Assembly: GCA_030272155.1 (NCBI GenBank)
Contig: CP126196.1
Coordinates: 2,418,001 to 2,482,000, forward strand
DNA: 64,000 nucleotides
Source: Tetradesmus obliquus
Taxonomy: Eukaryota > Chlorophyta > Chlorophyceae > Sphaeropleales > Scenedesmaceae
Direction: 5' to 3'
Below are positions 757 to 64,000 of the stretch, piece after piece. The translations under genes were made by a program, and so were the position numbers. Under the pieces are notes generated by a model that saw only the letters and a list, made by a program, of their open reading frames with translations, did no database searches and had not been told where the DNA came from. Position 1 is the stretch's first letter. Every line of letters begins with the position of its first letter.

Positions 757-3278
757 ATGGGAGCCTGCTTGTCGTGCGGAAGCCACAGAGAGGTGGCACC
801 TGCACCTGAAGCCCCGCACCGAGCTGGGCACAGCGTGTTTGGCAAGGAGACCGAAGATGTACATGCAGTGTAAGCTGCAGCCCGCTTGCTGGTACCTGCA
901 TGGCTGCTTAGCAGGCACAGCTTGCAGGATCATGCGCAGGGGCAGGGCCAGTGAAGAGCAGCCTGCTGCATCCAATGCAATGCTGCGTTGACAGAGGATG
1001 CAGAGGCCAGTCTGGTGCTACGCCTTAGACCACCACTGCAGAATGCATTTACATTTGACGTGTGAAGCCTGAAGTGAGGTTGTGCAATCACACATGCCAC
1101 CAGTTCTAGTGCACAAAGCTGCCCTAACGCATCAGCCCGTTGAATGTGCTGCATGTCTTCTGCTGCTGACTTGCTGCAGCTACGAATTTGGCAAGTTTCT
1201 GGGCAGGGGCCGCTTTGGAAGCACCCGCGTTGTCACTAACACAGCCATAGGCGAGCAGCTGGCCTGCAAGTCCATTGCCAAGCACAAGCTGCTAAAAGAG
1301 CAGGAGCTGCTGCAGGAAATTCAGATCATGCAGCACCTTGCAGGACACCCCAATGTGGTGCAGCTGCGCAGTGTGCATGAAGATGCGGCCAGTGTGCACC
1401 TGGTGATGGAGCTGTGCAGAGGAGGAGAGCTGGCTGATGTCATCCTGCAGCGCAAGCAGCAGTTTGCAGAGAGCGAGGCAGCAGCAATCATGCGGACGAT
1501 CGCTGAGGTGAGCTCAGAGGTCTGAATGAGACGCCGTGGCGTGAGTGTGGCAAGTCTTGGAGGTGGACCGCTTTGCACTTGGATTATTGCAGCTGGAGTG
1601 CATGTTGTTCTTGCACTGCCTGGTGTACTGCATAAAGCACAGCGCATTGTGCTGCACAACACACTGCATGATGTACTGCGAATTGTACTGCGATGTACTG
1701 CACTGCAACTCATACTGCATTGCATGATGTACTGCAGGCTGTCGCACACTGCCACGCCAGCAGTGTCGTCCACAGGGACATCAAGCCCGAGAACTTCCTG
1801 CTCCTCAACAGCAGCGAGCCGGCAGCGCTGCAGCTGGCAGACTTTGGGCTGTCTGCCTTTGTCAGTGAGGGGCAGCGCCTCAGTGACGTGGTGGGCTCGG
1901 ATTACTACATGGCTCCCGAGGTAGGTGCAGGCGCTGATGATGCCACACAACACCTTCATTGATGATAATTGAGCTGACTGTTGCTTGTCCCATTGCACGC
2001 CTTTAGCTAACATGCTAATGGGAGTACTGTTCTTGGATGCCAGCGCCTCAGTGATGTGGTGGGCTCTGATTACTACATGGCTCCTGAGGTAGGCAGCAGC
2101 ATTCTCGACTCAGGAGAGGAGCTAGATTGTGCCACAGCTTGCTATTTATCTGAGAGGAACTCAGTGATGTGGTGGTCTCAGATTACTTCATGGCTCCAGA
2201 GGCAGGTGCAGGCACTGATGATGCCAGACAACACCCCTCCTGATGCAAATGAGCTCACTGACCGTCCCATTGCATGCTGTAAGCATTTGAAATGCTGAAA
2301 ATCATTGTGCTTGGATGCCAGCGCCCTAGTGACGTGGTGGGCTCAGACTACTGCATGGCCCCAGAGGTAGGCAACAGTAATTTCGACGCAGGAGAGGAGC
2401 TTGGTTGGTGCCACAGCATGATATTAATTACCTGAGAGGGGCTAGGAACATCTCTCTGGCCGCGCGCTCGCGGATTGAGAGATGGATTGTCTTGTAAGCC
2501 TGGCCACAGAGATGTCGATGCTGCTCTCTCAACCCTACCCCCAACAGTGCGCTACCGCTGACCACTCTGGCCATTGGTGCACCATCCTGCTGCAGGTGCA
2601 TGCCCGCAGCTATGGCCGTGAGGCAGATATGTGGAGCTGCGGCGTCATTCTGTACCTGCTGCTGAGCGGCTCGCTGCCATTCATTGGCGCTACACAGCAG
2701 GAGGTCAAGGAGGCTGTGAGGGAGGGCGATTATGAGCTGGAGAGAGGAGTGTGGAAGGATGTGTCTGAACATGCCAAGGTGCGGAAAAAACGAGGCGGTT
2801 GGTTGGCACACAGCATGAGATGGAGCCCCCTGAAGATGCACCACTCAGCTTTGCCGTCAGACTTTGGGGGCCTACTGATGAGGCTGCATGTGAGGGGATG
2901 TTGAGAGGGGAAGTGTGCCGCAAAATATGTGTGCCAAGTAGGAGGTGCAGCGTGCACATGTCCAGACAGGCCAGCTAGTTGGCGCTGTGATCTGTCTGCA
3001 CTGCAGCTGCTGCTGCTGCCACTGATTCTGGAGATGTGTGTGAGGATGCTTGCGCGCAACCTCGCCTCAACAACCAAGCAAGCAGCAAAGGCAGTCTGGC
3101 ACACTTCTGATGTTGACTTACAGCCTGTACATGCGCCCTGCGCTGCTTGCAGGACTGTGTGCGCCGCATGCTGCATGTCGATCCTGCGCAGCGTGCTACA
3201 GCGCAGGAGGTGCTGAGCCACCCCTGGCTGCAAGGCATGGCACGGCAACAGTCAGCAGACTGCTGGGTCACGGTGTGA
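757..3278 (+). CDS. CDPK/CaMK-type Ser/Thr protein kinase, putatively N-myristoylated, no EF-hands seen
   Basis: Five exons join in phase: 757-869, 1180-1507, 1738-1920, 2596-2778, 3153-3278 (310 aa). The protein starts MGACLSCGS, a classic N-myristoylation/palmitoylation start, so membrane anchoring is likely. Kinase motifs follow in order: glycine loop LGRGRFG, ATP-binding lysine in ACKSIAKHK, catalytic HRDIKPEN, DFGLS, activation-loop end GSDYYMAPE, subdomain IX DMWSCGVILY, and the closing AQRATAQEVLSHPWL. This is the CDPK/CRK group. Calcium-dependent kinases normally continue into an autoinhibitory helix and EF-hands; here the frame stops about 15 residues after HPWL. The gene is therefore either an EF-hand-less relative or the last exon continues through an intron I missed. 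Introns 1 and 3 carry repeats: TGTACTGC-rich sequence before the exon 3 acceptor, and four copies of the exon 3 end after it. Confidence 0.85.
1889..2440 (+). repeat. Tandem A-B-A-B echoes of kinase exon 3 3' end plus donor
   Basis: The functional exon end encoding VVGSDYYMAPE and its GT donor (about 1880-1925) recurs at about 2044-2095, 2160-2207 and 2322-2372. Following intron sequence shows two types. Copies 1 and 3 are followed by a gcaggcgctgatgatgcc-like stretch, copies 2 and 4 by a caggagaggagct-like stretch. Shared-motif starts are 1891, 2059, 2172 and 2337, so copy 1 to 3 and copy 2 to 4 are both about 280 bp apart. Echo copies have lost coding constraint. All lie downstream of the real exon. 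Confidence 0.85.
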
Positions 3279-3356
3279 CACGTCCCACACCTGTGTGGTG
3301 GCCACACTACCAATGGCCTGCATAGCGCACCGAAACGCATGCAGCACTTGCGCAGC

Positions 3357-3475
3357 TGCTGAGCCACCCCTGGCTCCCAGCTGCAGATGGCCAGCAGTCA
3401 GCAGCAGACTGCTGGGTGGTGGTGTGACCAGGGTGTGGTGGTCACACTGGCTTTGGTTACACTGGCGATGGCAGG
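3357..3475 (+). repeat. Echo of the kinase terminal exon
   Basis: Sequence starting gagccacccctggct at 3359 duplicates the exon 5 segment at 3217, including the following CAGCAGACTGCTGGGT part and the tgtggtggtcacactgg flank (second copy around 3435-3460). It lies downstream of the stop codon and is diverged. Confidence 0.75.
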
Positions 3476-5328
3476 ACTGTCGTGCTGCGTTGGGAGTGCA
3501 GCAAATTGGCGACCAGCGACAGCCAGCCACCACGTAGTGAAGGTCGTGCCAGCAGCAGTAGGACCAGGAGAAAGCAGCCTGCTAAGAAGCAGCAGCCTGC
3601 TCAGGCGGCAGCAGCCTGCCACGCAGCAGCAGCCTGCCGGGCAACAGCTGCATGCTGAGGCGGCCTCAGGCAGCTGCTGAAGCGGCCTCAAACAGCAGCT
3701 GATTGTTGGTGCCTGCAGAGAAGAGCACCCAAGCCACTGGCAAACCGCCTGGCTGTCAGCACACAGGTGAGCTGCGCTGGGCATGCTATTGCGATAAGTC
3801 GTGCGCAGTCACGCATTCATTCTAATGCAGACTGTTGGGCTTGATTACGGTGCTGCACCAGTTGTACAGCAAAAATGGGTGTTGCATGCCCAGGCCTGGT
3901 GCATCCTGCTGGAACATTGTGCTTAGAGCATCACCAGCTCTGAAAAGAGCAGCAGTGTTGAAAGCCCTTGTGCATGAAGAGTCAGGCCAGGCTGGTGCTG
4001 TGCAGCAGCTGCCAGTGCAGTGCAGTGCAGGCCTCGTTCTACAGTGCGCTTTGTCTTATGTGTGGTGCTCCTGTCACTTTGGGTGACAGCCGTTGCTACT
4101 ATCTAGCTTGTGAAACTGTGGCTGACATCGTGCACTGCCGTGCTGTCTTGCCTGCTGCTGCATGTGCTTTCTATCTACCAGGGCAGCAGGCAGCGCTTGC
4201 TGGCTGATGTCCCCAACAGCTGGAGCTGCTTCTTCATGTGTGGCTGCTAGCATGACCAAGCTTGACTGGTGCAAATGCTTTTGACAGGTCGAGCAGGCGT
4301 GTTGCAGTACTGGTGATTGGTGACGGAGACCAACGAATGAGCTGATCAGTACACTTCAAGGTTTGGTTTTGGCTGTCATAACAGCTACAGCAGCAACACA
4401 ACACAAATGGTGACAAACCTTGTACCTGCCTGGCCTTGATGATTTGCATGGAACCTTATCATGCTTGGCGGCTGCCACAAATGCCTGCATTAATTGTTAT
4501 TCTGTACGTACATGTGCACACGTACTTCGCAGCTGCAGCGCTGCTCAAGCAACGATTTGAACCTTGGTTGAGGTGGCCGTTGCAACAACCAATCGGGGCA
4601 ACCAGCTGAACGTGTCATTTGATACTGCCACCAGTGGCAGAGATGAAGAACGATGCACAACACTTTGAAGAATTTGTGTGGTCACAAGCAAGTTACTATC
4701 TAAGGCCTACCAACATCGGCAAGGTTCAAGATATGTGCGATGCGTGCGGTTGATGTGTTGACAGAGAGTTTGCATATGGCATGTAAGCATGTGTGTTGTG
4801 CAGTTATGGCAGACCAAGTTCAGCATTGCCGTGACTCTGCAGTGCAGCACACAGGCCTTGGCACATGTGTCACAGCTACAAAGACCTGTGGCAGACGCCT
4901 GTGGCATGCAGAATCAAGCCACACTTGATGTGTCACACATGAACGAGTCGTTGAGCTGTGCGGTGTGATAATGTCCATACAAACAGGTTACTTTCTGCCA
5001 TGCAACAACCCATACTTTTTGCAACACATGTCACAGCCCACACGCCCATGGCTACCAGCACAGTTTGCTGCCTATGGTACTCGTGCAGCAGTGCACGACG
5101 CAGCCGCTATGACCGCTTTGCATGTCTTGCCGTCTGCATGATGCAATGCCCACAGCAACCACTGCTGCCCTGATCACTGCCAGCACAGCTGCAAGCACAG
5201 CTCGCTGCAAAGGTAGTGCTGTGCCACCACGACCAGTGCAGCAGCCACATAGGAGGCGTTGCCACTCACACCCTGCTGCCAGTATGCACATGACACAACC
5301 CCACAGCAGCCGCTGCGGCCTCTGCTTC

Positions 5329-5333
5329 TTACA
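5329..5333 (-). terminator. Candidate TGTAA poly(A) signal for the VTE6 gene
   Basis: TTACA on the + strand reads TGTAA on the VTE6 strand. It lies just beyond the outermost copy of the VTE6 terminal exon, so the transcript may run through the echo array. A 5-mer alone is weak evidence. Confidence 0.3.
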
Positions 5334-5340
5334 TTGGCCT

Positions 5341-5960
5341 CACAAGTAGTATTTAGCCAGCACGGCAAGCGCAGCAGCCATTGAGATCAGGATGACATTG
5401 ACCAGGTCGTTGTTCAGCCACTGTGCAGCAGACGCTGAGGTCTGCTGCTGGCCTCATGGGATGCCCACCACTGCTGCAAGGCTTCATAGGTAGTACTTGG
5501 CCAGCACGGCAAGCGCAGCCGCCACTGAGATCTGAATAACGTTGACCAGGTCGTTGTTCAGCCATTCCACCTTGCCCTGGATGACGTTGAGCTCAAAACC
5601 CTGTTAAGATGCAATTCTGCAGAGATCGCTGCCACCTCTGCTTCACACACGGCTCACAGCTAGTGATTGGCCAACACAGCCGGCTCAGCCGCCACTGAGA
5701 TCTGCTGTTGCCGTGCTGAACGCCCACAACAACAGCTGCTGCTGCGCCTCACAAGTAGTTTTTAGCCAGCACGGCCAGCGCAGCAGCTACTGAGATCTGA
5801 ATAACGTTGACCAGGTCGTTGTTCAGCCACTCCACCTTGCCCTGGATGACGTGGAGCTTTAACCCTGTTACCCGCACGACGAGATACTATAGAGATCGCC
5901 GCCGTCTCTGCTGCATACATGCACAGGTTGTACTTGGCTACCACGGCAAGCCCAACAGTG
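5341..5960 (-). repeat. Five echoes of the VTE6 terminal exon
   Basis: The C-terminal coding segment (WLNNDLVNV...LAKYYL, real copy 6005-6115) recurs on the same strand at about 5345-5425, 5487-5600, 5658-5705, 5756-5870 and 5925-5955. Identity falls from high (5345, 5487, 5756) to fragmentary (5658, 5925). All lie downstream of the real exon, inside the likely 3' UTR. The copies at 5345 and 5756 still encode most of the C-terminal helix, so alternative last exons cannot be excluded from sequence alone. Confidence 0.85.
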
Positions 5961-6004
5961 TTGTTGCCGTGCTGAACGCCCACAACAACAGCTGTTGCTG
6001 CGCC

Positions 6005-8791
6005 TCACAAGTAGTATTTGGCCAGCACAGCCAGAGCAGCTGCGACTGAGATCTGAATAACGTTGACCAGGTCGTTGTTCAGCCACTCCACCTTGCCCTG
6101 GATGACTGCACCCAGGTAGCTCTCAAACACGTTGGCCAGGAATGCTGCTGCGGTTACCAGCACAGCGTCGCTTGGAGTTGTCTGCGGCAGCAGGACGACA
6201 AGCAACAGCAGCAGGGTCAGCACATGCAGTTACAAAGTGTCCGGCCGAGTGTCCAGGACCAACCAGTGCCCCTTCCCCTCCCGTTATCTTAGCATCTGTC
6301 TGTCAACGCAACAAGGCGTCAACCCACCTTGTAGGCTGCAACCGCACATATCCTGCAAGACATACTTTTGCTTTACCAGTATAAACAAAGACGCATAGCT
6401 CAAGCACCGCCCCGTCACAATGCCATGGCCATGCCACAGCATCTTGACCTGGCCCATGGCTGTCACGACAGCAGCATGCACAGCAGCGCCAACATTCTGG
6501 CGCTCCATAGCCACAGCATCCTTACCTGGCCAATGGCTGTCGCAACGGCGGCGTACGCAGCGGCAGCGCCCAGGCCCGACATCGTGCCCTCCAGGCTCAC
6601 AGCCCCTTCAGTGCCACGTGGCACAAGCTTCAGGTTGGTGATGAGGTACGTGGTCTTGCCATACGCCTGCGGCATGAGTGAAACAAAAACAAGTAAAAAC
6701 AGTCAATGTGAGCAGCCAAACAAGTAAGGGCATTCGCAGTGCTTGCAGTGTTACGCGGCTTGTGTTGTGGTACATAACAGCTGCGCAGCCCCAGCTTGAG
6801 GTTGGTGATGGGGTACATGGTCTTGCCATACGTCTGCGGCATGAATAAGTAAGTGATTAAAAGTCTGATTATGTGTCTGCAATCTTCAATGTGGCTGGTG
6901 TTCTGGTATCTCGTGCAATGCTGCTGTGACATGCAGGCGCGCCAGCTGCTGCGGCTGCACGGTGGTGTGGGAGTATGCGCCTGGGCACAGAGAAAGTGCA
7001 GAGACTCAGCACCCCGCTTTTCTGCACACAGCACTCAGCTTTACAATCTGCAATGCAACAGTGTTCTGTAGCATATGCTTCGACATAGCGCAACACTCCT
7101 TCAGAATTTGGCAACCTCACCTTGCCGATTTCACTTGACACTGTGTCAGACAGCTTGCTGGTGAAGCTCGCCACAAAGCCGATCTGCCACAGGTCAAACT
7201 CGCCAGTTGCCAGCGCAGCAGCTGCACAGAATGCGCCCGCGGCGCCTGACCCCCACACACTGTTCTGCAAGAGGCAACACAAACCGCAGCATAACATTTG
7301 ATAAGCCGCCGATATGTACTGAAGATAGCAAGTATACAAGGCATCTGCAAGCGCGGAACGGCAAATAGATGCCGGTCTGCTGTGGCCAGAGCTGCTGTGC
7401 AAGCTGCTGCTGCATGCACGCCCTGGCACACATGGTGAGACAGGCAGCAGCCATGGCTTGTGCAGCACACACAGCATCGCCTGAATGCAAAGTCGTGCTC
7501 ATTGTCACACCGTCCTCATGCCTCATGCAAACAGCGCTCTGTGTCCAGGCTTCAAGCACGCCACTCACTGGTCCCCTCCTGCCTGAGTTTGCTTCTGCTA
7601 TGCCCTCCTTCTGCTTCTGTTGCAGCTTCACTTTTGTGACCTGCAGCAGAAACAGCAATACTACACATCATCAGCTTGTGATGCAGCTACAACACCCGGT
7701 GGTGGTGCGCTGTTAGGCCATCTGCAGGACTGTGCACTGATGCTGTGTGCTGCTGGTACTGGTGGTGCTGAAGCTGCTGCTGCTGCTGCTGCTGCTGCTG
7801 CGTTGATATCAAGTGCACTTTGCAGCATGCACAGCTGCTACATGTGCCACTCAATGCAGTGCAGTGCAACAGCATGCTAAGTGTGTCTCATGTACAAGCT
7901 GTCTGATGTCAATGCTTTTGCTGCTGATGCTGCTGCTGATGCTGCTGCTGCCACGCAAGGCAGTGTGAAAGCCATCCATCAAACTCTTCCCTACGGACCA
8001 TTCAGCCTCACCGCAGTGCCAAATATGAAATACAGGCACAGCAGAGAGAAGCTGCCGGCCCCAAAGGCCCCATACAGCAGCGTCCCAAGCGCAAATGCAT
8101 TCACTATCCCTGAGGGTGTCAGGCCTTTCTGCAGCACCCGCACGCCTGCTGTCATTACTAGGCCTGTTACTGCTGCACCCGTGGCGAGGCCGGGGTGTGC
8201 TGCTCCTGCTGATTCAACCAAGGCCTGCAGAACGCACAGAAGTTGATGAGGCAGGGTGTTTGGATGGTTACTGCAGGTTGTAAGGGTCAGTACCGAGTGG
8301 CAGTGTTTAGTCGTTGGGTTGATGGGCTTTGCCTGCAATGCATGTTGGTCAGGCACGTCATTGACGATGAACCACAGCACATGGGACAGTGACAGACAGC
8401 TGAGTAGAAGAGAAGCTGGCGACTGACGGCTAAGTTGCAGCGCATGCTTCGCATGCGTACCCACTCTTTGCACATGAATGCAGCAACTACATGTGTAAGC
8501 AGGCGGTTTGTGCACAGCCATATGCTTGCGCGGTACTGCTGAGGTGCTTGCTGTCCTTGCACAACTGCTGGAACGGTAAGCAGAGCATATGCTGCGCGCT
8601 GTATGTGGTCAATGCTGTCATTTCAGTTGTCACACCTGTAAGCCATCTGGCACCGCTACTGCTTGAGCAGTGTGCTGTGGTTGTCTTCTGCTGCGTGCCC
8701 TCTGTGCTAGTTGCAGCTGAGGGGGTGGTACTGAAACTGCTCGAGAGCAGCTGCGACTCCCAAGCTGCGCATTAGGTCTACACTGAAGCAT
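6005..8791 (-). CDS. VTE6: Phytyl-phosphate kinase-like protein (DUF92/TMEM19 family, VTE6)
   Basis: Six exons on the minus strand: 8791-8636, 8224-8012, 7640-7569, 7264-7121, 6666-6526, 6181-6005 (300 aa, all phase 0). Exon 1 is Arg/Ser/Gln-rich and reads as a plastid transit peptide. The body is hydrophobic and carries family landmarks: LTPSGIVNAFALG, VTKVKLQQK, GRRGP, SVWGSGAAGA, SDTVSSEIGK, PRGTEGAVSLEGT, ESYLGAVIQG and WLNNDLVN. In plants VTE6 phosphorylates phytyl phosphate to phytyl diphosphate in the chloroplast envelope, linking chlorophyll breakdown to tocopherol and phylloquinone synthesis. Length matches the family (about 300-330 aa). A GTG at 8824 is in frame upstream, but ATG 8791 is the sensible start. 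The gene diverges from the rhodanese gene. Confidence 0.9.
6426..6482 (-). repeat. Downstream echo of VTE6 exon 5 3' end
   Basis: Reads AAVHAAVVTAMGQ followed by a GTCAAG donor remnant on the minus strand, matching AAAYAAVATAIGQ plus GTAAGG at the end of exon 5 (6526-6666). It lies downstream of the exon in transcript direction. Confidence 0.75.
6783..6842 (-). repeat. Upstream echo of VTE6 exon 5 5' end
   Basis: Acceptor-like sequence plus TYGKTMYPITNLKLG on the minus strand matches the start of exon 5 (AYGKTTYLITNLKLV). It lies upstream in transcript direction, so this exon has a 5' echo before it and a 3' echo after it. Confidence 0.8.
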
Positions 8792-9129
8792 TGTTGTGAC
8801 TTGCACAGCCTTGCAGATCAACACGTGAACCTTGATCGAAGAGAGTTTTCACAGCACCGGTCAGAAGCAACTGCTGATCTCCGGTGTGTGTGCAATATGC
8901 AGCCTGCGTTATACAGTCAGCGATCTTAGAAACAAGTCTGACAGCATTGAAGCCGCTCAATCGTTGAGAGAGGTTGCCCCGGAACTCTGTGACTAAGTGG
9001 GGTTTGGCGTGACAAGTGCTGCGTGCAGTTCGGTGCCCCAGAACAAAGATCCCTGGCAGATAAGCATTTTCGTGTTGTGTGTCAAGCGTTTGGCCATTTT
9101 CATACAGCCGGTCCGCTCCGTTTGACACC
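8792..9129. promoter_or_regulatory. Short divergent promoter between VTE6 and the rhodanese gene
   Basis: Only 338 bp separate the two start codons (VTE6 ATG at 8791 on minus, rhodanese ATG at 9130 on plus). Both products are predicted plastid proteins, so a shared bidirectional promoter is plausible. I see no clear TATA box or known element. Confidence 0.5.
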
Positions 9130-12100
9130 ATGCAGACAGCAGTTCGTCACCACACAAACACTCGGCTGCGGAGTGCAAGCCAGCCGAGCCATGGCGCTGC
9201 AAGGCCGGTGTCTGTGCGTCCTACGGTGTCTAGGGCCCGCAAGCAGCAGCTGCATGTGACCTGTGCCCTGGATCCTGCTGCTGTGCAGACTGGCACATAC
9301 TGGGCACTGGGCGCAGCAGGTTTGTAGCCAATCTGTCGGTCTCGCAGCCTTCCTAACATGAAACAGTAATATTATTCGCAGCAGCAGCGATCACAAGTGC
9401 ATCTGCTGCAGTGACTGCCAGATATTTGTCTCAACTGCCAGTGAGCCAGAGATATGCACCGAGTGCACAGTGTGCACAGGCTTGCCACATGCAGACCAGT
9501 TGCATGTGACCTGCGCCAGCATCTTTGTACAGCATCATATCTGGTGCGACGTGGTCTCTTATATGTTGGCTCCCCAGCAGCTGCATGCGCAGAAAGCTAG
9601 CGCCAGCTGTAGCCATTCTGCAGGGTGGCGTGATAGTGTGGCCAATGCGCAAGCAATGCGCTTTGCCCGTGACACGCTGCCATGCCTGGCTGCATTCTAT
9701 GCTCCGCAGCTAGCACCTTTGTTTTTTGACCATTAAATATATTCACTTTCTTTTCCGCTCCTTTTGCCCTGCCGCAGGCGCCAGCTTTGTGGGCACCTTC
9801 TGTATCATCCCGCGCTTCAAAAATGCCCACTGCCTGTGACACTGTGCTGTTTGACCAAGCCTGGCTGCGCCCTTTGGCATGCACCTTGTTTCCCCTTTTT
9901 TCCTGCTGCAGGCGCCAGCTTTGTGGGCACCTTCTTTGTCATCCCGCGCTTCAAGGACAGCTTCAAGGAGGACCTGGAGTGGCGCGACATCTATGAGGCA
10001 CTCAGCAGCACAGGCGTTAAGCAGCTGGAACCCAAGGAGGCATACGCCAAGTGCAAGAGGTGAGGCTTTTGTTTGGTCTCAAGAGTAGAGTAGCACGATG
10101 CAGCATCCAGCGAGTCAGGTGTGAACCAGCTGGGGTCCCATTAGGAGGCATACACAAACAGCAACAGTTGAAACAAAGTGCATGCTATGGCCCAGGCTGG
10201 CAGATGGTGGCATGAACAGGCCTGGGGGAGGCAGTGGGAATGGCGTGACAGCAGTGCAGCAGCTTTCAAATTGTTAACAGCTTAAGCGGCCAGGGGGCTA
10301 AGACTGCCTACGCCACATGCTGGCGGTGAGCAACAGCAGCTGTTGCAGTGTTATCATGCACATCTCCAGGGGCTATTGTGTAGAGTCAGTCATGCTGGAG
10401 CCCGCAGGGCTGACCAAAGTAATGTAGTGAATGTTGGAGGATGTGTGTGGGGTGTGCCCTTCATGTGTGGCGGCCCCCGGAAATGTGCGTCGCCCGTGCT
10501 TGAGGGTCATGGAGGCATCCTGCATGGGTGTCTTCGAAAGCTGCAACACACCAGGTGTCTGTACACCTGTGGTTTTTCAGTCGTCTGCCACTCTCTCTCT
10601 CTCTCTCTCCCTCGCCTCGCCTGCCTTCACCTATGCAGCGGGTCAGCAGTGCTGCGGGCTGTGCGCCTTAGCAACAAGTTCGAGGCCTCTCACATATCAG
10701 GCACCAGCTGTCATGCACTGATCCCTGCTTTCCCAATATACGCTTTGTTTCACAAATGCAGCGGGTCAGCGGTGCTGCTGGATGTGCGCTTGGGCAACAA
10801 GTTTGAGGCCTCTCGCGCGGCATGCTCCCTCAGCGCGCCGCTGTAAACCCTGTAAAATTTTGCACAATGCATGCATTCGTGTCATAGCAGGATCCTGCCT
10901 GGGTGTCTCTGGGAAGCTGCCAACGGCACCAGGTGTCTTTACACATGTGGTTTTTCAGTCGTCTGCCACTTCTCCCTTCCTCGCCTGCCTTTCCATTTGC
11001 AGTGGGTCAGCGGCGCTGCTGGATGTGCCCTTGGCAACAAGTTGAAGAACTCTCACATATCAGGCAAACGCTGTCATGCACAAATCCCTGCTTTCCAATC
11101 CACGCTTTGTTCCGCAAAGTGCAGTGGGTCAGCGGTGCTGCTGGATGTGCGCCTAGGCAACAAGTATGAGGCCTCTCACGCGGCTATTTCCGTCAGCACG
11201 CCGCTGTACAACCCCATCCAGAAGTGGGACCTGCCCTCCACGCTGCGCCGCGCTGGCTTTGCTTTCTTCGGCATCTATGGCACAGGTGTGTGTTTTACTG
11301 CCTGGGTTGTGATCGATGTGATGCTTTGCTGTTGAAGTGGGACCTGCCCTCCACGCTGCGCCGCGCTGGCTTTGCTTTCTTCGGCATTTACGGCACATGT
11401 GGGTTTTAGGGCACACATGTTTGATGCTCTTGGTGGATTCGTATGTGTTGAAAGTTGGACCTGCCCTCCACGCTGCGCCGTGCCGGGTTTGCTCTCTTCG
11501 GCATCTACGGCACAGGTGGGCTGGGTCTTACAGTTCTGTAATACATTTTGTTATCTTCTTGGAAGTGGGACGTACCCTCTACGCTGCGCCGCGCTGGCTT
11601 TGCTTTCTTCGGCATCTATGGTACAGGTAGGTTTCAGGGCACACAGGCTTGATGCTCTTGGTGGATCTTGTAAGTGTTGGAGGTGGGACCTGCCCTCCAC
11701 GCTGCGACGCGCTGGGTTCGCTTTTTTCGACTGTTATGGCACAGGTGGGGCTGGGTATTACAGTTTGAAATACATAATGATTTGCTATCTCATTGGAGGT
11801 GGGACCTGCCCACCACGCTGGGCCGCGCTGGATTTGCTTTCCTCGGCATCTATGGGACAGGTGGGTTTCAGGGCACACAGGTTTGATGCTGGTGCTTTTG
11901 TTGTTGACGTGGGACCTGTTCTCCAGGCTGCGCCGTGCCGGCTTTGCCTTTTTCGGCATTTATGGCACAGGTGTGTGTGAGGCCTAGTTGTTTTGTCTGG
12001 AAATTGAGCTAACACCAGCATGGCAGCAGGCGTCAGTAACAACAGGCCGGCTTTGCCTTCTCAGCATCTTCTACAGCACATGTGGAGGTGCAGCGCCTCT

Positions 12101-13248
12101 AATAGTTGATTCACAGCAAACTGTCAGCAACAGCAGGCGGGTTGTCGCGTGTGGGTCTGGCCTTGCGCGTTGGCTGCAGCAGCTGCTGCATATTGCGCAG
12201 GTGTAATCAGTCCTGGATGATCTGTGATCATTCCAGGTCAGGTTGTGGATGCTGCGGCATGGCTGGTGGTTTCTGTACTGAGCAATGCCATGTATGCGCA
12301 CCCTGCATGCGATTCCTTTGTTGCTCTGCATGGCCAAAGCAACTTGATGCATTCTGCTGCTGCTGCTGCTGCTGCTGCTGCCGCTGCAGAGCTGAACACC
12401 AACTTTGGAGATGATGTGCTGAGCCGAGTGCCCAAGGGTGAGCGCACAACTTGCACACACATGCATGCCCTTTTGCTGCAGTGTTCGCCCCAAAGCTAGC
12501 TTGCTGCGTGGTTTGGAGCTGCTTTGAGCGGCTGGCCTGCAATGCACGCCTATCAAAAAGGCCAGAACACCAGCATATGTTAGAAGAGTTTGTGCAGCCT
12601 TGAATTAGTGAAGTACAGACGGTATACGTGTGTGTTTCTCTGTGCCGCAGGCAAGCAGCTGGTGGTCATGTGTGAGAATGGCGGCAGCTTGGAGAACAAG
12701 TCAGGCACCAAGTACGGCTTCCAGTCACGGTGAGCAGCCACACATGCAAGCGACAAGCAACCAGCAACAGACATATGCACATACACGTGGAAACTGGCAA
12801 AAAGGAACAAGCAGCAAAGAGCGATATGCTGAGCGACTGGTGCCAAATCAGCCACGGCATGCATTGTGTGTCAAAGCTGCGCAGCTGTAGCGCCTGTTGC
12901 CCATGGTGTGAGGCCAAGCCACTCTGGCCAGGTGCAGCGTACTGCACTGTTCAGTGCAGTCTTTGGATGAGGAGTTGTCAAATGGCGCCAAGAAACATTT
13001 CTAAATAGGACGATTCTAGGCATGGTAAAAGCATAACTGTGCACCTTCAAGCAATGCTGGTCCAGAAGCCCCCCGCCCTAGGGCTCCTGGCGCTCCGAGT
13101 GGGCAACATTTCTGTTGCATAGCCCGCCATGGCTGAGGCCTGTTGGCAGTGCCGCTGCTTGCCTTGCAACAGCTCTCTTGCCTCTAACAGCTGCGGCTGC
13201 CAGCACTGTCGCTCCTGACGCTTGGAACCACCTTGCTGCTGCGGCTTG

Positions 13249-13281
<33 letters not shown>

Positions 13282-15239: not shown

Positions 15240-17575
15240 TTAGACTGCCTCCAGTCCTGCGGCCTTCCTGAGAGCCTCAAAGCTGAGGAAGGTGATGACG
15301 GTGTGCGGCCTGCAGCAGGCGAACAGCAGGCAGCAAACACACACGTATTCTGACTGAGCATCCAGGCAGCGTGTGAGGATGCCTTGCCAGCGTTGACGGA
15401 CACTGGCTGTTGCCAAGCTGCAGCCTCAAGACAGGCTGCAAGCAGCTGCTGTATCCAGCTCTCCTACAATGTTTCGTCAGAGGAACCAGACAGGACGTGT
15501 GATGACGGCAACTCAACAGTCAAACCTGGTCGAACCTGGTCAAACATTTCAAAAACTGACAGCTGGAGCCTCACCCGATGCGCAGCCAGTTGGGCAGCCA
15601 TCCCTTGTACAGCCCGCGCAGCCCCTCCGCCCGCAGCGTCTTCATCAGGCAGTCAGCCACGCCGCTGTAGCGCAGACCCTTGCCCGTCACCTGCGGCAGC
15701 AGCAGCACACACGGCAATCAACGTGCCACAGACAGATAGTTGCGGCACCAATGCAGCGAGGTCGTTGCGCGGTCACCGTGCTGCTGTAGCGCAGCCCATT
15801 GCGAGTGTTGCAGCAGCAACACCCGTCATCAACTGAGTAAACAAACTCAGACATGCTGTTGCACTTGCAGCATGCACGTCGGTCAACCACACACTGACAA
15901 AGGCAAATCCTCACCTTTTCCACCTCACTCCCAACGACTGCCCCTGCACCCACTTTGTTGAACTCCTGGTTCAGTAGCGTGGCAGGGGCTTCCAAAAAGG
16001 GTTGGTGGTGGTGGCCAGCCCATCAACCTGACACGCAAACATCATCGCTCATATGCTACTGCACTTCAACGCCTGAATAACCTAAACACACCTTGTTGAA
16101 GTCCTGGTAGCGCGACTTGACCAGGTCTAGGGAGTTGGTGGTGGTGGCCACAGCCAGGCCATCAACCTAAGCCCCACAACATCCAAACCCTTATGCTGAT
16201 CGACTCGCAACCCCTGCAACACCCCTAAACCCAGCTTGTCAAACTCCTGGTTCATGTAGCGCGACTGGACCAGGTCCAGGGGGTTGTTGGTGGTGGCCAC
16301 AGGAGGCCCTGAACCATCAATTACACCCCAAACCCTACAACATCAAATCCTCAACGCTTGCCTCACATTGTCAAACTCCTGGTTCATGTAGCGCGACTTG
16401 ACCAGGTCCAGGGGGCTGGTGGTGGTGGCCACAGCCAGGCCACCACGCCAACCTACGACCCAAACATATAAACAATAATGCTAATCAACCCGCAACCCCT
16501 TAAAAACCCCTGAACCCACATTGTCAAACTCCTGGTTCATGTAGCGCGACTTGACCACGTCCAGGGGGCTGGTGGCGGTGGCCACAGCCAGGCCACCACG
16601 CCAACCTACGACCCAAACATAAACATATAAACAATAATGCTAATCAACCCGCAACCCCTTAAAACCCCCTAAACCCACCTTGTCAAACTCCTGGTTCATG
16701 TAGCGGGACTTGACCAGGTCCAGGGGGTTGGTGGTGGTGGCCACAGCCAGGCCAGCAGTGATGCTGGAAGCAATGTGTGCTCCCACGCCCTCCTCTAACA
16801 AGCCGTTGCCTATCAGCAGGTACTTGACCTCATCTGCAGCACAACATGTCACATAACATGTTATGACAGACTGTAGTTGTGGTTGTCAGGGGCAGTGATG
16901 CTGGAGGCGATGTGTGCACCCACGCCCTCCTCCAATAAGCCATTGCCTATCAGCAGGTACTTGACCTCATCTGCAACACAACATGATACATAACTTGTAA
17001 TATGACAGATTTACTTGTTATGGCAGACTGTGGTTGTGGTGTCAGGGGCAGTGATGCTGGAAGCAATGTGTGCGCCCACACCCTCCTTTAATAAGCCGTT
17101 GCCTACCAGCAGGTACTTGACCTCATCTGCAGCAGACATGCCACACAGCATGTTAAGTAACATGTGACATAAAACAGAGGTTGTAGCCGAACATCAACTT
17201 CAAGATGTAAAAACCATCACCAATAAGATGGCTGTACTGCATAGCATGTCATTGCTGCTGCTTGTGCTGGCACAAATGAAGCAGCAGAGCAGGTGCCTTT
17301 GTGCAATGATGCTGGCTCTCACCATACGTCGCAAACTGGGTTGCTGTCAGCACCATTGCTCGCTGCACGGTAGGCACCACACCCCTGCAGCGGAAGGCGG
17401 ACACAATATGCAGGGAACAGCGTACAGGAACGTGTCAGAACATAAGGCATTACTACAGATACTATTCCTGGCATTGCTCAGGCAGACAGCAGAGACACTA
17501 GCTGGTATCAATCAAGCGCTTTGCAAGGATGAATCCAAGTCGCAACTCATTGCCTTGCCAACCAGAGCAGCAGGC

Positions 17576-17654
<79 letters not shown>

Positions 17655-17736
17655 ATGGCTCACCTGTACATGCCTGCGATGCCTCCTTCTGTGTGGTAGA
17701 TGATACACCAAGCAGCGACCCCATCAAGGACAGACT

Positions 17737-17772
<36 letters not shown>

Positions 17773-19656: not shown

Positions 19657-19687
<31 letters not shown>

Positions 19688-32577: not shown

Positions 32578-32611
<34 letters not shown>

Positions 32612-33197: not shown

Positions 33198-33229
<32 letters not shown>

Positions 33230-52959: not shown

Positions 52960-53006
<47 letters not shown>

Positions 53007-53445
53007 AGGTGGAGGGCTTCAAGTCTGTGTTTGTGTTTGACCCCACCAGCCTGCGGCTCACGCCCAAGGCCAACCTGACACGCAAGCGCTGGTACCCCAC
53101 CACCGTCACGCTGCCCAACGGGGACATCTATGTGCCAGGTGGGCAGCCACCATCAGCAGTGATTGCAAAACCATGCAGCAAAACAATGCTTTCATATGCC
53201 GGCGGGTGGCTGCCTTTGAGGCCAAACTGGGGTTGTTGCAGCAGTATAGTAAGGGTGGTGTGGTGACACCTGCGGACATCTCATTGGGAGTCAGCTGACT
53301 GAACCTCATACTCCGCCGCTGGTGCTGCTGCTCCTGCTGCCTTCACATTCAACTCAGGTGGCACCAAGCCCCAGATGAGCACTGGCGTGTGGATTGCTGG
53401 TACACACACACCTCTCATGGGCAGTCAGCTGAGTCAACTACGGAT

Positions 53446-53477
<32 letters not shown>

Positions 53478-56400
53478 TGTGTGCTGTGCACAGGTGGCAC
53501 CAAGCCCCAGATGACCAATGGCGTGTGGCCCAAGGCAGAGGCTGCCGACATCTTCAACCACGCACACGACACAGTCACACAGGTGCCCACCAATAGCAAG
53601 CTGCATGAGGCAGGCCTGGGCAACTGGTACCTAGGTGAGGCTGCCGTAAAGTTCGATGCATATGTAATCAAACAGATGACAACGATTGAACTTTGCTTGA
53701 CGCACCTTTGGGATGAGCCGGTTTTATGTGTATTGACTGGTAGCTGCGTGCGTGCTGATGCGCAAGTAACACCCTGCAGTTTGACGGAGGCACTGAGATA
53801 GGCCTGTTACAGGGGCCGCAAGCAATCGGCCGCAGTGAGGCTATGTGTGTCATACAAAACATGCATGGCAGTTGGCAGCTAGTGTGCAGCAAGCGCCGCA
53901 GCCTGCAGGTGACACAACAAGCAGCCATGTCAGCCATGACAGCCATAAATCTTGACCTCATACTTATGACAGTGACAGTGACTTTTGTTTTGCATCCGTG
54001 CTGCTTGCAGGCGCGCTGGTGCTGCCTACCGGCCAGCTTGCCGTGATGAACAAGAACATGATGCAGGTCATAAACCCCTACACTGGAGAGGCGCTGGCAG
54101 AGGCCCCTGCACTGCCAGACAAAGTGAAGGACCTCGTGTGGGAGTGAGCGGCGCTGCTTGTGATGGCAGATGGGCTTGCATGATGTGACGTACATGTTGC
54201 AAGGGCAGCAGGCCCCTTGACAGTGTGACATGCTGGGACACAGTGAAGGACCTTGTGTGGGAGTGAGTGGCGCCACAGCTGCTGCGGAAAGCTCGTGTAG
54301 TGCTATCACAGCACGCCATCCAGCAACATCCAGCATTGTGTGCACGGCCAGCATGAGGCATCATCAGCCGTTTCTGACTGCTGCTGCTAACCCCGCTGCC
54401 ACCACTGCTGCTGCCGCAGGTTCCCCCGTATGGGTCCCCAGGTGCACCTGCGTGCCCCAGTCATGAAGCCAGGCAAAGATGTGCTGCTCGAGTTTGTTGC
54501 CTTCGGCGGCAGTTGGGTCGACTCGAAGCTTGACGAGGATCTGAAGCATTGCAGCCACGTGGGCTGCGATCGAGTGGCGAGTGAGAAAAAGCCGTGTGCG
54601 GATGTCGCGGTTCGAATTGGGCTGAAGGTCACTGCAGGCGGCCAGTACAAGTTCGACGACAGCTGGGAGGTGAGCGGGCAGGGTTTGTTCAAGGCAGGGT
54701 TCACTGCTGGTCCAGGGTTTTCTTCTTGACATGTGATCTTTTGGCTGTGGTAGCTGCAATGTAAGATCAGCTCATTGCGCAAGATAAATCTTGAAGCATT
54801 TGAGATGAGCGCACAACTGCTGCTGCTGCTGCCCATTGCAGGTTGAGACGATGCCAGGTCAGCGCTGCATCTTTGACGGCATCCTGCTGCCCAACGGCCA
54901 CGTGGTGCTCATCGGGGGCCAGAAGGTGAGCAAACAACAAAAACCGAAATACAAACAACAAAATTACCACATATCAGAGGCCGCTGTGGCTGCATCTGCA
55001 GCCAGCATGACTGTCCTGGTCAGATGCTTTGAGCAAAGACAGCCGCTGCCTGCAGCGGCTATGGGCAGGTAGCTCGCCTGATGAGGCGGTTGTGTACTTT
55101 CTGCTGCATGCGTACTGACTGGTGAATGCTGCTGCTGCTGCAGGTGGGCCTGGGCGACCTGACTGACTCCCCAGCGTACAATGGAGGCCACCAGCCCTAC
55201 AACGAGCCCTGGGTGAGTGTCTCAACTGCACCTGCTGCGGCACAGCAATGTTGCTGCATTGCTGCTGCTGCAACCAGCCCTTGCACTATGCTGGACACTC
55301 GTCAAGTGATGGCATTGCGCAGGCTGATGCGGCAAGCACACCAACTTGTGTAGCAAGGGTAGCAACAAGAGCTGACTTGGTGCCAATGGCTTTGTATGCT
55401 GGCTGCAGATCTACAAGCCTGACCAGCCCAACGGCAAGCGCTTCACCAAGACCGGTGCCAAGACCAAGATTGCTCGGCAGTACCACGCCACCTCCATCCT
55501 GACCAAGGACGGTGACATCCTCATCGTGAGTGGTGGTGAAACGCTGCGCAGTAAACCCAGCTAAGAAAAATGCCAGTGACTGTATGCTGCTGTGGGCCAT
55601 GCACGTCTAGAAGTTTGTAGAATGTTGGCTGCTTAGTGTTTGCCTGCATATGTAGCAGGCCTGCACCAGTGCAGGCACTGCTGACTGCGAGTCTGCGACT
55701 TGCCCTCAGTCAGGTGCTGCTTCACACATGTGGGTACTGCAGAATACCTTTTTCCTGCAAGACTTGAGCTCGCTTGCCTGCGTGCTGCATTTGCTGCTGC
55801 AGGGTGGCACCTCCAACGCTGGCTTCTGGCGCAGCAGCAACGAGCAGGAGTTCAGCCGCACACCGCTGGGGGTGAATGAGTACAGGTGCGCACATACAAT
55901 GAGCTTGCGCACATATGCTTGATGCAGTCAGCAGTGCAAGGCACTAATTGAGAACAAGCACTTATCACGGCAGCTTCAGGCTTGAACGAGGCTCAGTGTT
56001 AGAGCAGTGTTTGGAGCAGTGCTATGGCCCCAAGCAGCACAGCATACTAGCCGTCTATTGCGGCACAGCGCAGCCGTGTCGTGTCCAGAGCAAAACTGCA
56101 GGCATGAATTACTAAACAACAGCGCCTGAGACGTGTGCAACTGGCTGTGTCACTGCAGGATGGAAGTGTACCACCCTCCCTACTTGTTCCAAGGCAACCT
56201 GCCGCGCATCACCACACCCCCTCCCACCTTTACGCCCTATGGCAGCACCTTCGAGGTCGGCTATGCCTTTGACAGCCCTGCTGCGATCACTGCAGTGGTG
56301 CTGCACAACGCTGGCGGCGTGACACACAACTATGCAATCGGTGAGTCTCACAGGCACCCTGGCCTGACCTGGCTGCAGCTGCCGCTGCTGCTCTTGGTAG

Positions 56401-56575: not shown

Positions 56576-56634
<59 letters not shown>

Positions 56635-57382: not shown

Positions 57383-57460
57383 GGCTGATGGTGTGCGCAG
57401 ATTATATACGGTTGACGCTGATGATGTCGAAGTGTACTGCGTATAGCGCTGATAGTGTGT
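57360..57460 (+). repeat. Echo of the glyoxal oxidase terminal exon
   Basis: The end of the last exon (cattgatgatgttgaggtgtactgcgtgtgag, 57350-57383) recurs at 57417-57450 as cgctgatgatgtcgaagtgtactgcgtatag. It lies downstream, like other terminal-exon echoes. Confidence 0.8.
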
Positions 57461-60780: not shown

Positions 60781-63585
60781 ATGCTGCGCAAGCTGCTCGG
60801 CAAGAGCAAAAAAACGAAGGAAGGAGAAGAGCGAGACCAGGAAGCAGAGGAGCAGCAGCAACCGCAACAGCAGCAGCAACAGCAAGAGGAGCAACAGCAG
60901 GGATCAGCCATGGCTTTTATCACGGATGGTACTCCGACAACCTGGACGGAGGAAGAGCTCGCTGCGGGCAGGGCAAACTACTCCAGTGACGAGTCGTATG
61001 AGCTGAGCTTTTCCAAGCAGAACCCAACGCCAGGCGAGTGCCTTGCAGCATTCAGTTGCATGCGACCTGACCTGTGACAGCCTGCATAAACATTGTAGTG
61101 AATGTAAACTGCTGGAGCTGTGCAGTTTACCGACAGGCCGCACATCAGAGCTGTGACAGGTGTCGTGGGTCATCCACAGAGTGGTGTGGCTGCTGTCAGT
61201 AGTCCATGCTTGGCAGCGGGACACGCCGTTAGCAACCCTGGCAATCCAGAACTGTACTTCCTAACTTCAATCCCCCTGGGTCCGCCTGCCCTGGAAAACC
61301 CCTGTGCTAAACCTCTCTCCTGCAGGCACTGGCCGCACTGGCTTCATTCCTGTGGCCCCAAACAACTACCCCTTCTACAGCAGCAGCGATGAGCTGTACA
61401 CGCCAGTGCTGCAGAGCGACGGCGGCCAGCTGTCAGGTGAGACCGGTGGGCGGCGGTGGGCTGATGCTGTGGTGTGGTGGGCTGAGGCTGTGGTGTGGTG
61501 GGCTGAGGCTGTGGTGTGGTGGGCTGATGCTGTGGTGTGGTGGGCTGATGCTGTGGTGTGGTGGGCTGATGCTGTGGTGTGATGGGCTGATGCTGTGGTG
61601 TGATGGGCTGATGCTGTGGTGTGGTGGGCTGAGGCCTGGCACCAGTGTGCACAGCTGTGTTGTGGTGCTGGGTGCTGTCTTGCGCCTCAGGTGTGTACAG
61701 CCGTGCGCCTCAGGTGTGTACAGCCGTGCGCCTCAGGTGTGTACAGCCGTGCGCCTCAGGTGTGTACAGCCGTGCGCCTCACGTGTGTACAGCCGTGCGC
61801 CTCAGGTGTGTACAGCCGTGCGCCTCACGTGTGTACAGCCGTGCGCCTCAGGTGTGTACAGCCGTGCGCCTCAGGTGTGTACAGCCGTGCGCCTCACGTG
61901 TGTACAGCCGTGCGCCTCAGGTGTGTACAGCCGTGCGCCTCAGGTGTGTACAGCCGTGCGCCTCAGGTGTGTACAGCCGTGCGCCTCACGTGTGTACAGC
62001 CGTGCGCCTCAGGTGTGTACAGCCGTGCGCCTCAGGTGTGTACAGCCGTGCGCCTCAGGTGTGTACAGCCGTGCGCCTCAGGTGTGTACAGCCGTGCGCC
62101 TCACGTGTGTACAGCCGTGCGCCTCAGGTGTGTACAGCCGTGCGCCTCAGGTGTGTACAGCCGTGCGCCTCACGTGTGTACAGCCGTGCGCCTCAGGTGT
62201 GTACAGCCGTGCGCCTCAGGTGTGTACAGCCGTGCGCCTCAGGTGTGTACAGCCGTGCGCCTCGCAGATTGATCTGGCATGTGTTGTGGGGGTGTTGCTG
62301 TAATGGATGCGGTAGGCTGCGCAGGGGTGCCGTTATACATACGCACCAAAGAACTATGAGGATATATTAGACTCAACAGGCCTGGTGCAGTCTGGAACGT
62401 CTGTTGGTGTCATTGGTGCGCAACAAGTTCGCAAACATGTGACACAGTTTGAAAGTTATCTACGGCAGCTGACTTGTTGCATCCACGCGCTGGTTGCGGC
62501 TCAATTGCAATGATTGTGTCAGAATCCTGCAAGGGGTAAGCGGCACACTTGACGACAGCTGACACAACCTATGGCTGCCTTTAGATCTGCTTGTGCTGCT
62601 GCTGCTGCTGCTTCTTGAGCTCGTGTTTCTGCTGCTTACTCGCTACTGTGAACTGCATGTGCTGCTGCTGCTGCTGCCAGAGTGGCAGCCGATGTACCAG
62701 CCCAGCAGGGAGCAGGCTGAGGCAGACAGGGCGGCAGCATATGAGGCTGGCGTGCCGCACGGTGAGGCTGCGCACACTGCTCGAAAAGCAGTGCTAACAT
62801 GTGCAGTATGGAAAAATGGACAGTCTAGCAAGTCTAGGATGAAAAATTCAAATCTGTGCACCTTCACGCATTGCTGGGCCAGTAGACCCCCTGCTAAAGT
62901 CCCCCCAGCGCTCCTTGTGAGCTGTCCACGCAGGCACGGCAGTCCAGCTGCATGGCACCGTAGCAAAAAGTGATGGTCGCACCCGTAGGCGCAAGGAGGG
63001 TTTATAGGGCAGCAGCAGTGTCAACAAGTATGTACAATCCAGCCTTGCTGAAGTGCGTTACCAAACACAAAGCAACCAGGGCAGCAGTAAGAGGGGCAGA
63101 GGTGCCGGCACTTCCACAGCCATACAAGCCCATGTTCTGATGTGCTGTGTTCCGTTGCCGCTGCTGCCACTGCTGCTGCCGCCGCCATTACTGCTGCTGC
63201 TGCTGCCGCTGCTGCCACTGCTGCTGCTACTGCTGCTGCTGCTGCTGCTGCTGCCAGGCTATGTTGCGCCTGGTGACCGCTTCAAGGGCCTGCCCACCAT
63301 CCAGCTGCAGGTGGTCAGTGAGCTGGTGAGCAGGCAGTGGGCAGGCTAACACCGCGGCTAGCAAGGGAGTGCTTACTACTGGGATGCATTGCACAGCAGC
63401 CTGCCTTGTACCACCAAGCTTCTGTTGTTTCTCCCCGCATATGAGTGTGTGTGTGCTTGCTGCTGTCCCTGGTTTGCATTCTTGCCCAGCCTGCAGCAGC
63501 ATGGCACAGCACATACTGTCCAGGGATCTAGCGGGGCTGCTCCTCACGTCTTCACCTACACAGAACTTCATCCTCTGCGGTTGCT

Positions 63586-63618
<33 letters not shown>

Positions 63619-63914
63619 ATCTTCTGCGCCGTGTCACCACGCTTGTGCAGCACGACGACTCCGAGTACGGCAGTGACGTCGCTGCAGATGGCAGCCACAG
63701 CGGCGGCCCCTTCAGCATCACAGTGTCGGCAAAGATGCGTGTTGAGGAGCTGCGGGCAGTGATCAGAGATGTGGGTGGCATCCTGCCAGCGCTGCAGCGG
63801 CTGTCATATGCCGGCAAGCATTTGGATGATGCACAGCGCACGCTGGAGCAGTATGGTATTGGGTACTGGCACAACAAGTTCCCGCACTGGCCGATCAGGG
63901 TGCGCAGGTTCTGA
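60781..63914 (+). CDS. Ubiquitin-fold domain protein
   Basis: Five exons: 60781-61033, 61326-61436, 62681-62761, 63258-63325, 63651-63914 (777 nt, 258 aa). The N-terminal part is basic then Glu/Gln-rich (EEQQQPQQQQQQQEE), followed by a conserved-looking block PGTGRTGFIPVAPNNYPFYS and MYQPSREQAEADRAAAYEAG. The last exon encodes a ubiquitin-like fold: FSITVSAKMRVEELRAVIRD, then ALQRLSYAGKHLDDAQRTLEQYGI, equivalent to the [21 protein letters not shown] region of ubiquitin. There is no C-terminal GlyGly; the protein ends IRVRRF, so it is a domain fusion, not a conjugated modifier. Exon 1 joins exon 2 only through a GC donor (CCAG|GCGAGT), a rare GC-AG intron. The start could instead be ATG 60910. 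Intron 2 holds two minisatellites; introns 2 to 4 end in or near CTG tracts. Confidence 0.75.
61456..61640 (+). repeat. 21-bp minisatellite in intron 2 of the ubiquitin-fold gene
   Basis: About eight and a half copies of ctgatgctgtggtgtggtggg with G/T and G/A variants (ctgagg..., ...gatggg). It begins 20 bp after the exon 2 donor. Confidence 0.93.
61688..62262 (+). repeat. 23-bp minisatellite, 25 units, with donor-like core
   Basis: Unit gtgtgtacagccgtgcgcctca followed by G or C. Twenty-five units are nearly perfect; the only regular variation is CAG|GTGTGT (19 units) versus CACGTGTGT (6 units, numbers 5, 7, 10, 14, 19 and 22). The G form presents a consensus-like splice junction and the C form creates the palindrome CACGTG. 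Unit length is not a multiple of 3, so all frames stay open by chance. Confidence 0.95.
62805..62905 (+). repeat. Dispersed repeat, copy 2 (partner at 12990-13070)
   Basis: Shares tctagga.tg..aaaa, then ctgtgcaccttca.gca.tgctgg.ccag.ag.cccc with the copy in the rhodanese intron. This copy lies in intron 3 of the ubiquitin-fold gene, same strand relative to the host gene. Confidence 0.6.
63135..63257 (+). repeat. Interrupted CTG/CCG tract before exon 4 of the ubiquitin-fold gene
   Basis: About 110 bp of CTG with CCG, CCA and ACT interruptions end at the CAG acceptor of exon 4 (63258). Confidence 0.92.
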
Positions 63915-63919
63915 GGTGT

Positions 63920-64000
63920 TCAGAATTGGAGGAAGCACCTGGATGGTGTGCAGCGCACGCTGGAGCAGTACGGCATTGTGTACTGGCATAACAAGTCTCC
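63920..64000 (+). repeat. Echo of the ubiquitin-fold terminal exon (runs off window)
   Basis: Sequence from about 63929 matches GKHLDDAQRTLEQYGI and YWHNK coding (63813-63880) with a few changes, immediately after the stop at 63914. The copy continues past the window end. Confidence 0.9.

Follow-up and report, generated by a model that had tools for sequence, protein, structure and literature searches.

Why do introns of the green alga Tetradesmus obliquus carry, close to many of their splice sites, repeated pieces of the exons that they separate? The question is raised by a stretch of 64,000 nucleotides (the window; contig C6, positions 2418001-2482000, in a genome of 104.7 Mb on 17 contigs), in which a preliminary description reported exon ends repeated in tandem in unrelated genes. 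We call an echo a local direct copy of an exon end, usually with one splice border, located in an intron. The window was analysed together with a 240-kb sample (100-kb blocks of contigs C1 and C2, and 40 kb of C8), and the counts below refer to the resulting 304 kb unless a block is named. Our data suggest, with a probability that we place at roughly one half, that echoes are the remnants of recurrent local tandem duplications forming or surviving preferentially at exon ends.

The tandem arrangement was evident by self-alignment. Clusters of non-simple direct repeats numbered 33 in the window (minisatellites included), 22 in the C1 block, 6 in C2 and 37 in C8, versus 1, 7, 4 and 11 inverted high-scoring segment pairs (HSPs), respectively; over the whole data set, 292 HSPs were direct and 23 inverted. 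The local direct repeats of exon ends described for the genes of the window were thus confirmed, and the copies were direct and adjoined their source, as local tandem duplication implies. The cluster counts that follow exclude HSPs of simple sequence, the two minisatellites located at 61.4-62.3 kb and any cluster that lacked a 60-400-bp lag. The smallest lag of the 91 clusters was 100-170 bp in 64, 60-100 bp in 12 and 170-400 bp in 15 (median 127, quartiles 114.5 and 144.5, with lags of 60-400 only being admitted), in agreement with the unit of about 110-170 bp originally noted in unrelated genes. Spacing was similar on C1, C2, C6 and C8, and among eight loci fetched solely by a kinase search two (L006 and L008) contained arrays of about 125-bp spacing; other repeats were present in L002, L004 and L007, and none in L001, L003 and L005. 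From the proposal of one mechanism acting genome-wide, for which repair of breaks near splice borders, R-loops and nucleosomes had been named as possible causes, we therefore retain a common process operating at several places.

Echoes were found at 63 of 659 tested borders and were distributed in patches (23/150 borders in the window, 16/215 in C1, 2/220 in C2 and 22/74 in C8; overdispersion over 58 bins of 5 kb, p 9e-12). The exons hosting them had a higher GC content at third codon positions (GC3) than the others (0.80 vs 0.74, p 1e-4), a difference seen block by block in the window (p 0.018), C1 (p 0.066) and C8 (p 0.011), C2 having only 2 hosts. GC3 may mark expression in this genome, and its excess in host exons fits a transcription-linked process only if it does. 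At the nearest lag, the duplicated unit comprised 41-65 bp of exon and 58-85 bp of intron (quartiles for the 46 of 59 borders with a lag of at most 180); the minimum intron part may correspond to the room needed for a branch point.

Acceptor-bearing copies had been described as lying always upstream of the real exon, and donor-bearing copies downstream. Among 148 merged rows with an exon identity of at least 0.78, 107 followed this rule (69 donor-type downstream and 38 acceptor-type upstream) and 2 violated it; after merging to distinct places it held for 106 of 108 border-bearing echoes. These counts omit a tandem-exon-like region of C8 (plus-strand exons starting before 9000), where rows lay on both sides. 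In the window alone, with no identity cut, we counted 32 donor-type rows downstream, 16 acceptor-type upstream, 1 acceptor-type downstream and no donor-type upstream. Even though the rule is correct as a description, it is no evidence of mechanism, since tandem duplication with the exon kept intact forces it: a unit spanning the acceptor would leave a whole exon only with the downstream copy, and a unit spanning the donor only with the upstream one, so no special mechanism is needed. The statement that copies always include one splice border was too strong, as 39 of the 148 rows were exon-only, 20 of them overlapping a border echo and 19 lying at separate places (14 downstream, 5 upstream). 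Templated insertion was judged unlikely, given the almost uniformly direct orientation of the copies and their adherence to the side rule.

As the side rule is uninformative, what requires explanation is the scarcity of intron-only arrays. When a cluster was counted as border if any of its arms touched one (refined pass), 70 of the 91 clusters fell on an exon border, 6 were intron-only, 10 exon-internal and 5 intergenic. Random placement would give fractions of 0.28, 0.41, 0.12 and 0.16 for these classes, and a null with the arrays cut out and a similar unit size gave 0.30, 0.35, 0.14 and 0.17. The proportion of 70 to 6 thus contrasts with 0.69 border clusters per intron-only cluster under the null (p 4e-21, a value that is too small, as clusters within a gene are non-independent). 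Placement was therefore not independent of exons, independence being our own expectation for a random process and not part of the usual definition of tandem duplication. A cruder first pass, which took a single HSP for each cluster, assigned 58 clusters to one border, 9 to a whole exon, 8 to the inside of an exon, 12 to an intron and 4 to intergenic sequence; among the 12 intron clusters several were rows linking one echo to another within border arrays, and very short predicted exons were involved in several of the whole-exon rows. The deficit of intron-only clusters is large in both passes. Of the arrays reported by Tandem Repeats Finder, which is blind to exons, 18 lay at borders, 2 were exon-internal and 8 were of other kinds; by inspection, at least 3 of these 8 (window 16107, C8 10548 and C8 36488) belong to border arrays.

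Detection bias as the cause of this scarcity was not supported: when duplications of the observed age were simulated in the C2 block, which is poor in arrays, 138 of 150 confined to introns and 146 of 150 at a border were recovered; the simulated ages derive from exon parts, and are too low if exchange refreshes these. The scarcity of intron-only copies with respect to random tandem duplication consequently survived both the null model and the detection control. Clusters of other kinds do exist, namely the 10 exon-internal and 5 intergenic ones.

It could be argued that selection keeps echoes for a function, as decoy splice sites, alternative exons or regulatory RNA, a possibility that we consider unlikely. 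The analysis of codons and decay comprised 90 of 294 merged echo rows, namely those bearing a border, on the expected side, of known frame, with an exon part of at least 25 bp and an identity of at least 0.78, outside the C2 block and the plus-strand C8 exons before 9000. Four VTE6 rows entered as donor-type in the counts are in fact terminal-exon echoes. Mismatches between these 90 echoes and their 42 exons occurred at rates of 0.076, 0.068 and 0.175 at codon positions 1, 2 and 3, and in the 25 echoes at least 93% identical 39 of 54 mismatches were at position 3, a lean that speaks for function, as does that of the echo-private changes considered below. Much of it, however, came from the real exon: at the 23 of 52 borders with at least two echoes, where changes could be polarised, 22 of the 25 changes common to all echoes were at position 3, and 23 were silent and 2 not. 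Moreover, frameshifting indels were present in 28 of the 90 echoes, silent sites were too alike for coding constraint beside unrelated spacers, and the annotated T. obliquus rhodanese P0001 lacks echo segments. Among 104 echoes for which the frame was not needed, splice dinucleotides survived near the neutral rate, GT being kept in 58 of 66 donor echoes (0.88 vs 0.80 expected under neutral decay, p 0.10) and AG in 30 of 38 acceptor echoes (0.79 vs 0.81 expected). Coding selection was thus unsupported as the main cause of echoes.

A donor scoring above 2 was found within 25 bases after acceptor echoes at a frequency of 0.29, versus 0.51 in random intron (p 0.003, n=38; 0.34 vs 0.64 with a wider search span), as if echoes able to become whole exons were removed; an acceptor near the inner end of donor echoes was found at 0.47 vs 0.51 (n=66). 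The echo set overall does not therefore combine acceptor and donor in one copy, as tandem exons do, although single echoes may have both, and the idea of a mini-exon bounded by AG and GT, derived from the kinase array, was not borne out. Taken with the frameshifts and the near-neutral survival of splice dinucleotides, this shortage makes the echoes look mostly like non-functional half-exons. The exon part was more alike than the intron part in 49 of 60 echoes, which is the expected pattern because one exon copy is constrained while both intron copies drift.

The spacers between copies did not always share the history of the exon parts. In echoes with at least 35 aligned intron bases, spacers were similar (z>3) in 36 of 50 and without similarity (z<2) in 7, whereas in those with fewer than 20 aligned intron bases (n=28) they were unrelated (z<2) in 20 and similar (z>3) in 6, the exon parts of these 28 being as similar as elsewhere. 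In the rhodanese donor array two unrelated spacers alternate, and by eye copies of 96-97% identity alternate with heavily decayed ones in one array of C8. This decoupling suggests exchange or slippage between copies, and we infer that exchange is its cause. A metagenome open reading frame (ORF), P0037, matches the window's rhodanese acceptor array at 87 identical residues; in it the exon runs into a stretch of ten residues whose sole occurrence in the window, at 11620, follows an echo. The source of P0037 is a contig of 1,071 bases, which could be misassembled. The echo at window 10757-10850 retains the exon variant AACSLS, as in the exon of the near relative P0037, and the window exon 11125-11285 has AAISVS. 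Another relative, P0042, seems by eye to hold two short repeats after the rhodanese donor.

How such arrays would arise can be outlined as follows. Local tandem duplication, mostly of 100-170 bp, would recur with a unit made of one exon end and the adjoining intron; the real exon would remain whole, and the extra copy would stay in the intron as a half-exon with one splice site, free to drift. Later unequal exchange or slippage between copies would multiply the arrays and mix exon parts with foreign spacers, and exon ends would be the preferred sites for duplications to form or survive, the more so in exons of high GC3. For tandem duplication followed by decay and exchange there is good support; the border excess can be read in two ways. 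We put forward tentatively that mutation is itself directed to exon ends through transcription or splicing (e.g. by nicks with fill-in repair), producing tandem duplications of some 125 bp that straddle these ends and lengthening introns with copies of their own exons. In an excerpt of a comparison of Sphaeropleales genomes (PMC5966456), the mean intron length of T. obliquus is 462 bp, versus 230 in Raphidocelis, 302 in Monoraphidium, 284 in Chromochloris and 270 in Chlamydomonas reinhardtii. Alternatively, it is possible, if doubtful, that duplications are random and that arrays containing exon sequence outlast the others: exchange with the conserved exon would refresh them, and their loss by recombination would bring faulty sequence into the exon, whereas arrays confined to introns would decay or be lost through deletion. 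The unrelated spacers in 20 of the 28 echoes with short intron homology, the dimeric arrays with unrelated spacers, the alternation in the C8 array and the junction in P0037 all agree with such survival. Intron-only duplications of the same apparent age as echoes with a still alignable spacer should nevertheless be visible, according to the simulation, and yet are scarce, with the reservation on refreshed ages already given. In addition, after masking known echoes a further near-side match (z>4) appeared at 12 of 68 echo-bearing borders, versus 5 of 68 on the far side; therefore many echoes look like single events, which favours fresh events and weakens long-lived arrays as a sole cause.

Two other explanations fared worse. 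That spacers or units belong to a mobile element or an introner family is suggested by the regular size of about 125 bp and the recurrence at exon ends, but it is highly improbable: only 9 non-exonic cross-locus matches were found in the 304 kb, and a 115-base spacer matched only itself in a search of the genome, a search that missed a diverged copy in the window and is thus insensitive to old copies. A 214-residue ORF of an array had no relatives at E<=0.001, and Rfam gave no match at gathering scores. An artefact of gene models or assembly also seems very unlikely. Exons were predicted with a small hidden Markov model trained on the 304-kb sequences themselves, and real and echo exons were told apart by length (129 of 681 predicted exons were flagged as pseudo, i.e. 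likely copies), which invites this suspicion. Nonetheless, with echo segments left out, seven of eight protein pieces from the window gave Pfam families, namely DUF92 (VTE6), mitochondrial carrier, TLC ATP/ADP transporter, WD40 (Notchless-like), SCAMP, galactose/glyoxal-oxidase-like and ubiquitin; the eighth piece, the kinase, was read in the wrong frame and gave none, while kinase matches lie at window 1181 and 1705. The rhodanese protein assembled from the window exons was 100% identical over 98% of its length to the annotated P0001, arrays were found without knowledge of exons, and most copies are diverged rather than identical.

Several observations weigh against preferential duplication at exon ends followed by neutral decay. 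Echo-private changes lean towards position 3 (74 of 161; rates of 0.054, 0.029 and 0.077, p 1e-4), which neutral decay alone does not predict, and which could stem from echoes of unequal age, one of them keeping an older state of the exon. The 20 unrelated spacers are not given by plain duplication and decay, the 19 separate exon-only copies lack a border, and the border excess was smaller in the first pass. The very young whole-unit duplications (6 border, 1 intron and 2 intergenic) make a weak test of the targeting of fresh events, and the position of the splice site within the unit may stem from viability. The insensitivity of the spacer search belongs here too, as do certain ORFs of relatives over the same rhodanese exon, P0046 and P0047 among them, which by eye show no echo in the few tens of flanking residues visible.

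The arrays of the window are listed in the table. By eye, the copies of the VTE6 array extend to the stop, and the corresponding donor of the gene model is an artefact.

Table. Exon-end arrays and associated repeat clusters in the window
Gene	Feature	Positions	Strand
Kinase	Exon (model 1738-1920): donor-side echoes downstream; dimeric array, lags 168/113, higher-order 281	1873-2439	+
VTE6/DUF92	Terminal exon: echoes in 3' flank	5311-6106	-
VTE6/DUF92	Exon 6526-6666: acceptor-side echo, lag 167, 92% over 52 bp	6626-6844	-
Rhodanese	Exon (model 9912-10059): acceptor-side echo, lag 134	9760-9954	+
Rhodanese	Exon (model 11125-11285): three upstream acceptor-side echoes	10506-11214	+
Rhodanese	Exon 11125-11285: six downstream donor-side echoes, two alternating spacer types, ~230-bp dimer	11221-11982	+
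Mitochondrial carrier	Exon 16675-16833: donor echoes on low-coordinate side, acceptor echoes on high side	15941-17155	-
Mitochondrial carrier	Exon-border array, period ~115	17599-17928	-
TLC ATP/ADP transporter	Exon 21268-21566: donor echo	21532-21920	+
TLC ATP/ADP transporter	Exon 22321-22434: donor echoes, unit 93% identity over 183 bp	22399-22814	+
TLC ATP/ADP transporter	Exon 23124-23237: donor echoes	23181-23769	+
TLC ATP/ADP transporter	Exon 23963-24213: acceptor echo upstream (lag 107), donor echo downstream	23852-24459	+
TLC ATP/ADP transporter	Exon 24770-24909: repeat over acceptor, lag 124; in self-alignment, not in echo list	24636-24851	+
TLC ATP/ADP transporter	Exon 25783-26086: upstream acceptor echoes, downstream donor echo	25480-26330	+
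TLC ATP/ADP transporter	Exon from 27653: two acceptor echoes, exon part 97-98% identity	27408-27693	+
Notchless-like WD40	Region of separate clusters	32282-35669	-
Notchless-like WD40	Border echoes	33560-33781, 34319-34485, 35466-35669	-
Notchless-like WD40	Cluster of scripted class intron-only, but second arm overlaps predicted exon 32442-32567	32282-32507	-
Notchless-like WD40	Clusters of scripted class exon-internal	33115-33306, 33807-33938	-
Galactose/glyoxal-oxidase-like	Exon 53494-53634: acceptor echo	53276-53528	+
Galactose/glyoxal-oxidase-like	Exon 54011-54143: donor echo	54118-54273	+
Ubiquitin-fold	Predicted exon 63651-63899: echo of exon end, lag 117; scripted class exon-internal	63816-63996	+

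Repeats of other kinds were also present. Two adjoining minisatellites occupy window 61455-62263 in the region of the ubiquitin-fold gene (a 21-bp unit x8.5 and a 23-bp unit x25, 97% match), CAG/CTG triplet runs are very common at many places of the window, and a short dispersed repeat at 13006-13104 also occurs in C1 (44191) and C2 (45209) at 86-88% identity. In the C8 block, a 106-bp unit is repeated about 15 times with 95% identity over positions 7160-8815 (G000:C8:4507160-4508815), upstream of a predicted exon; among the Tandem Repeats Finder arrays of 60-400-bp period this one has the highest copy number. A 371-bp tandem pair of 100% identity lies away from predicted exons in the same block (G000:C8:4529846-4530580).

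Several known systems resemble these arrays in part. Short tandem duplications from the repair of breaks or paired nicks, known in plants and cancer, share with the echoes a size of tens to hundreds of bp, direct orientation and no element; we know of no preference of theirs for exon ends, which T. obliquus echoes strongly prefer. In tandem exon duplication, including mutually exclusive exons, exon sequence is also repeated in tandem within an intron, but echoes as a rule hold one splice site and part of the exon. Introners, units of about 100-200 bp linked to introns, are similar in size and in their tie to introns; they place the same sequence in many introns, whereas no repeated family was apparent in the part that we searched. 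Intron gain by tandem duplication, reportedly described by Hellsten et al. in 2011, also involves local duplication of exon and intron sequence. As far as the portions available of the respective articles indicate, such gain has been reported for Drosophila (PMC2891723) and for the potato RNA-dependent RNA polymerase gene, where an existing intron-exon structure was copied (PMC4974935). Such cases yield a new intron, whereas in T. obliquus existing introns receive half-exon copies, often several and in many genes. In the AGGT model of intron gain the head of the intron would match that of the downstream exon across an AG/GT point, a signature at which no search was aimed; in the alignments that we saw, the copy within the intron corresponds either to the end of an exon with its donor or to an acceptor with the exon start that follows it. 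Direct repeats of 4-30 bp near splice sites, interpreted as insertion footprints in the accessible part of a further study (PMC11782384), likewise lie at intron borders; the exon parts of T. obliquus echoes are of about 30-110 bp, with a spacing of about 125 bp. In the portions retrieved from open-licence PubMed Central articles, we found no description of border arrays of this kind.

If the preference for exon ends is mutational, expression or splicing would be linked to a specific structural mutation, which would provide a route for intron growth. If it reflects survival, an exon under constraint is able, through recombination, to preserve neutral copies of its own sequence. Either way, about one in ten of the tested borders in T. 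obliquus bears copies of its own exon, and these confuse gene prediction, as the exons flagged as likely copies illustrate.

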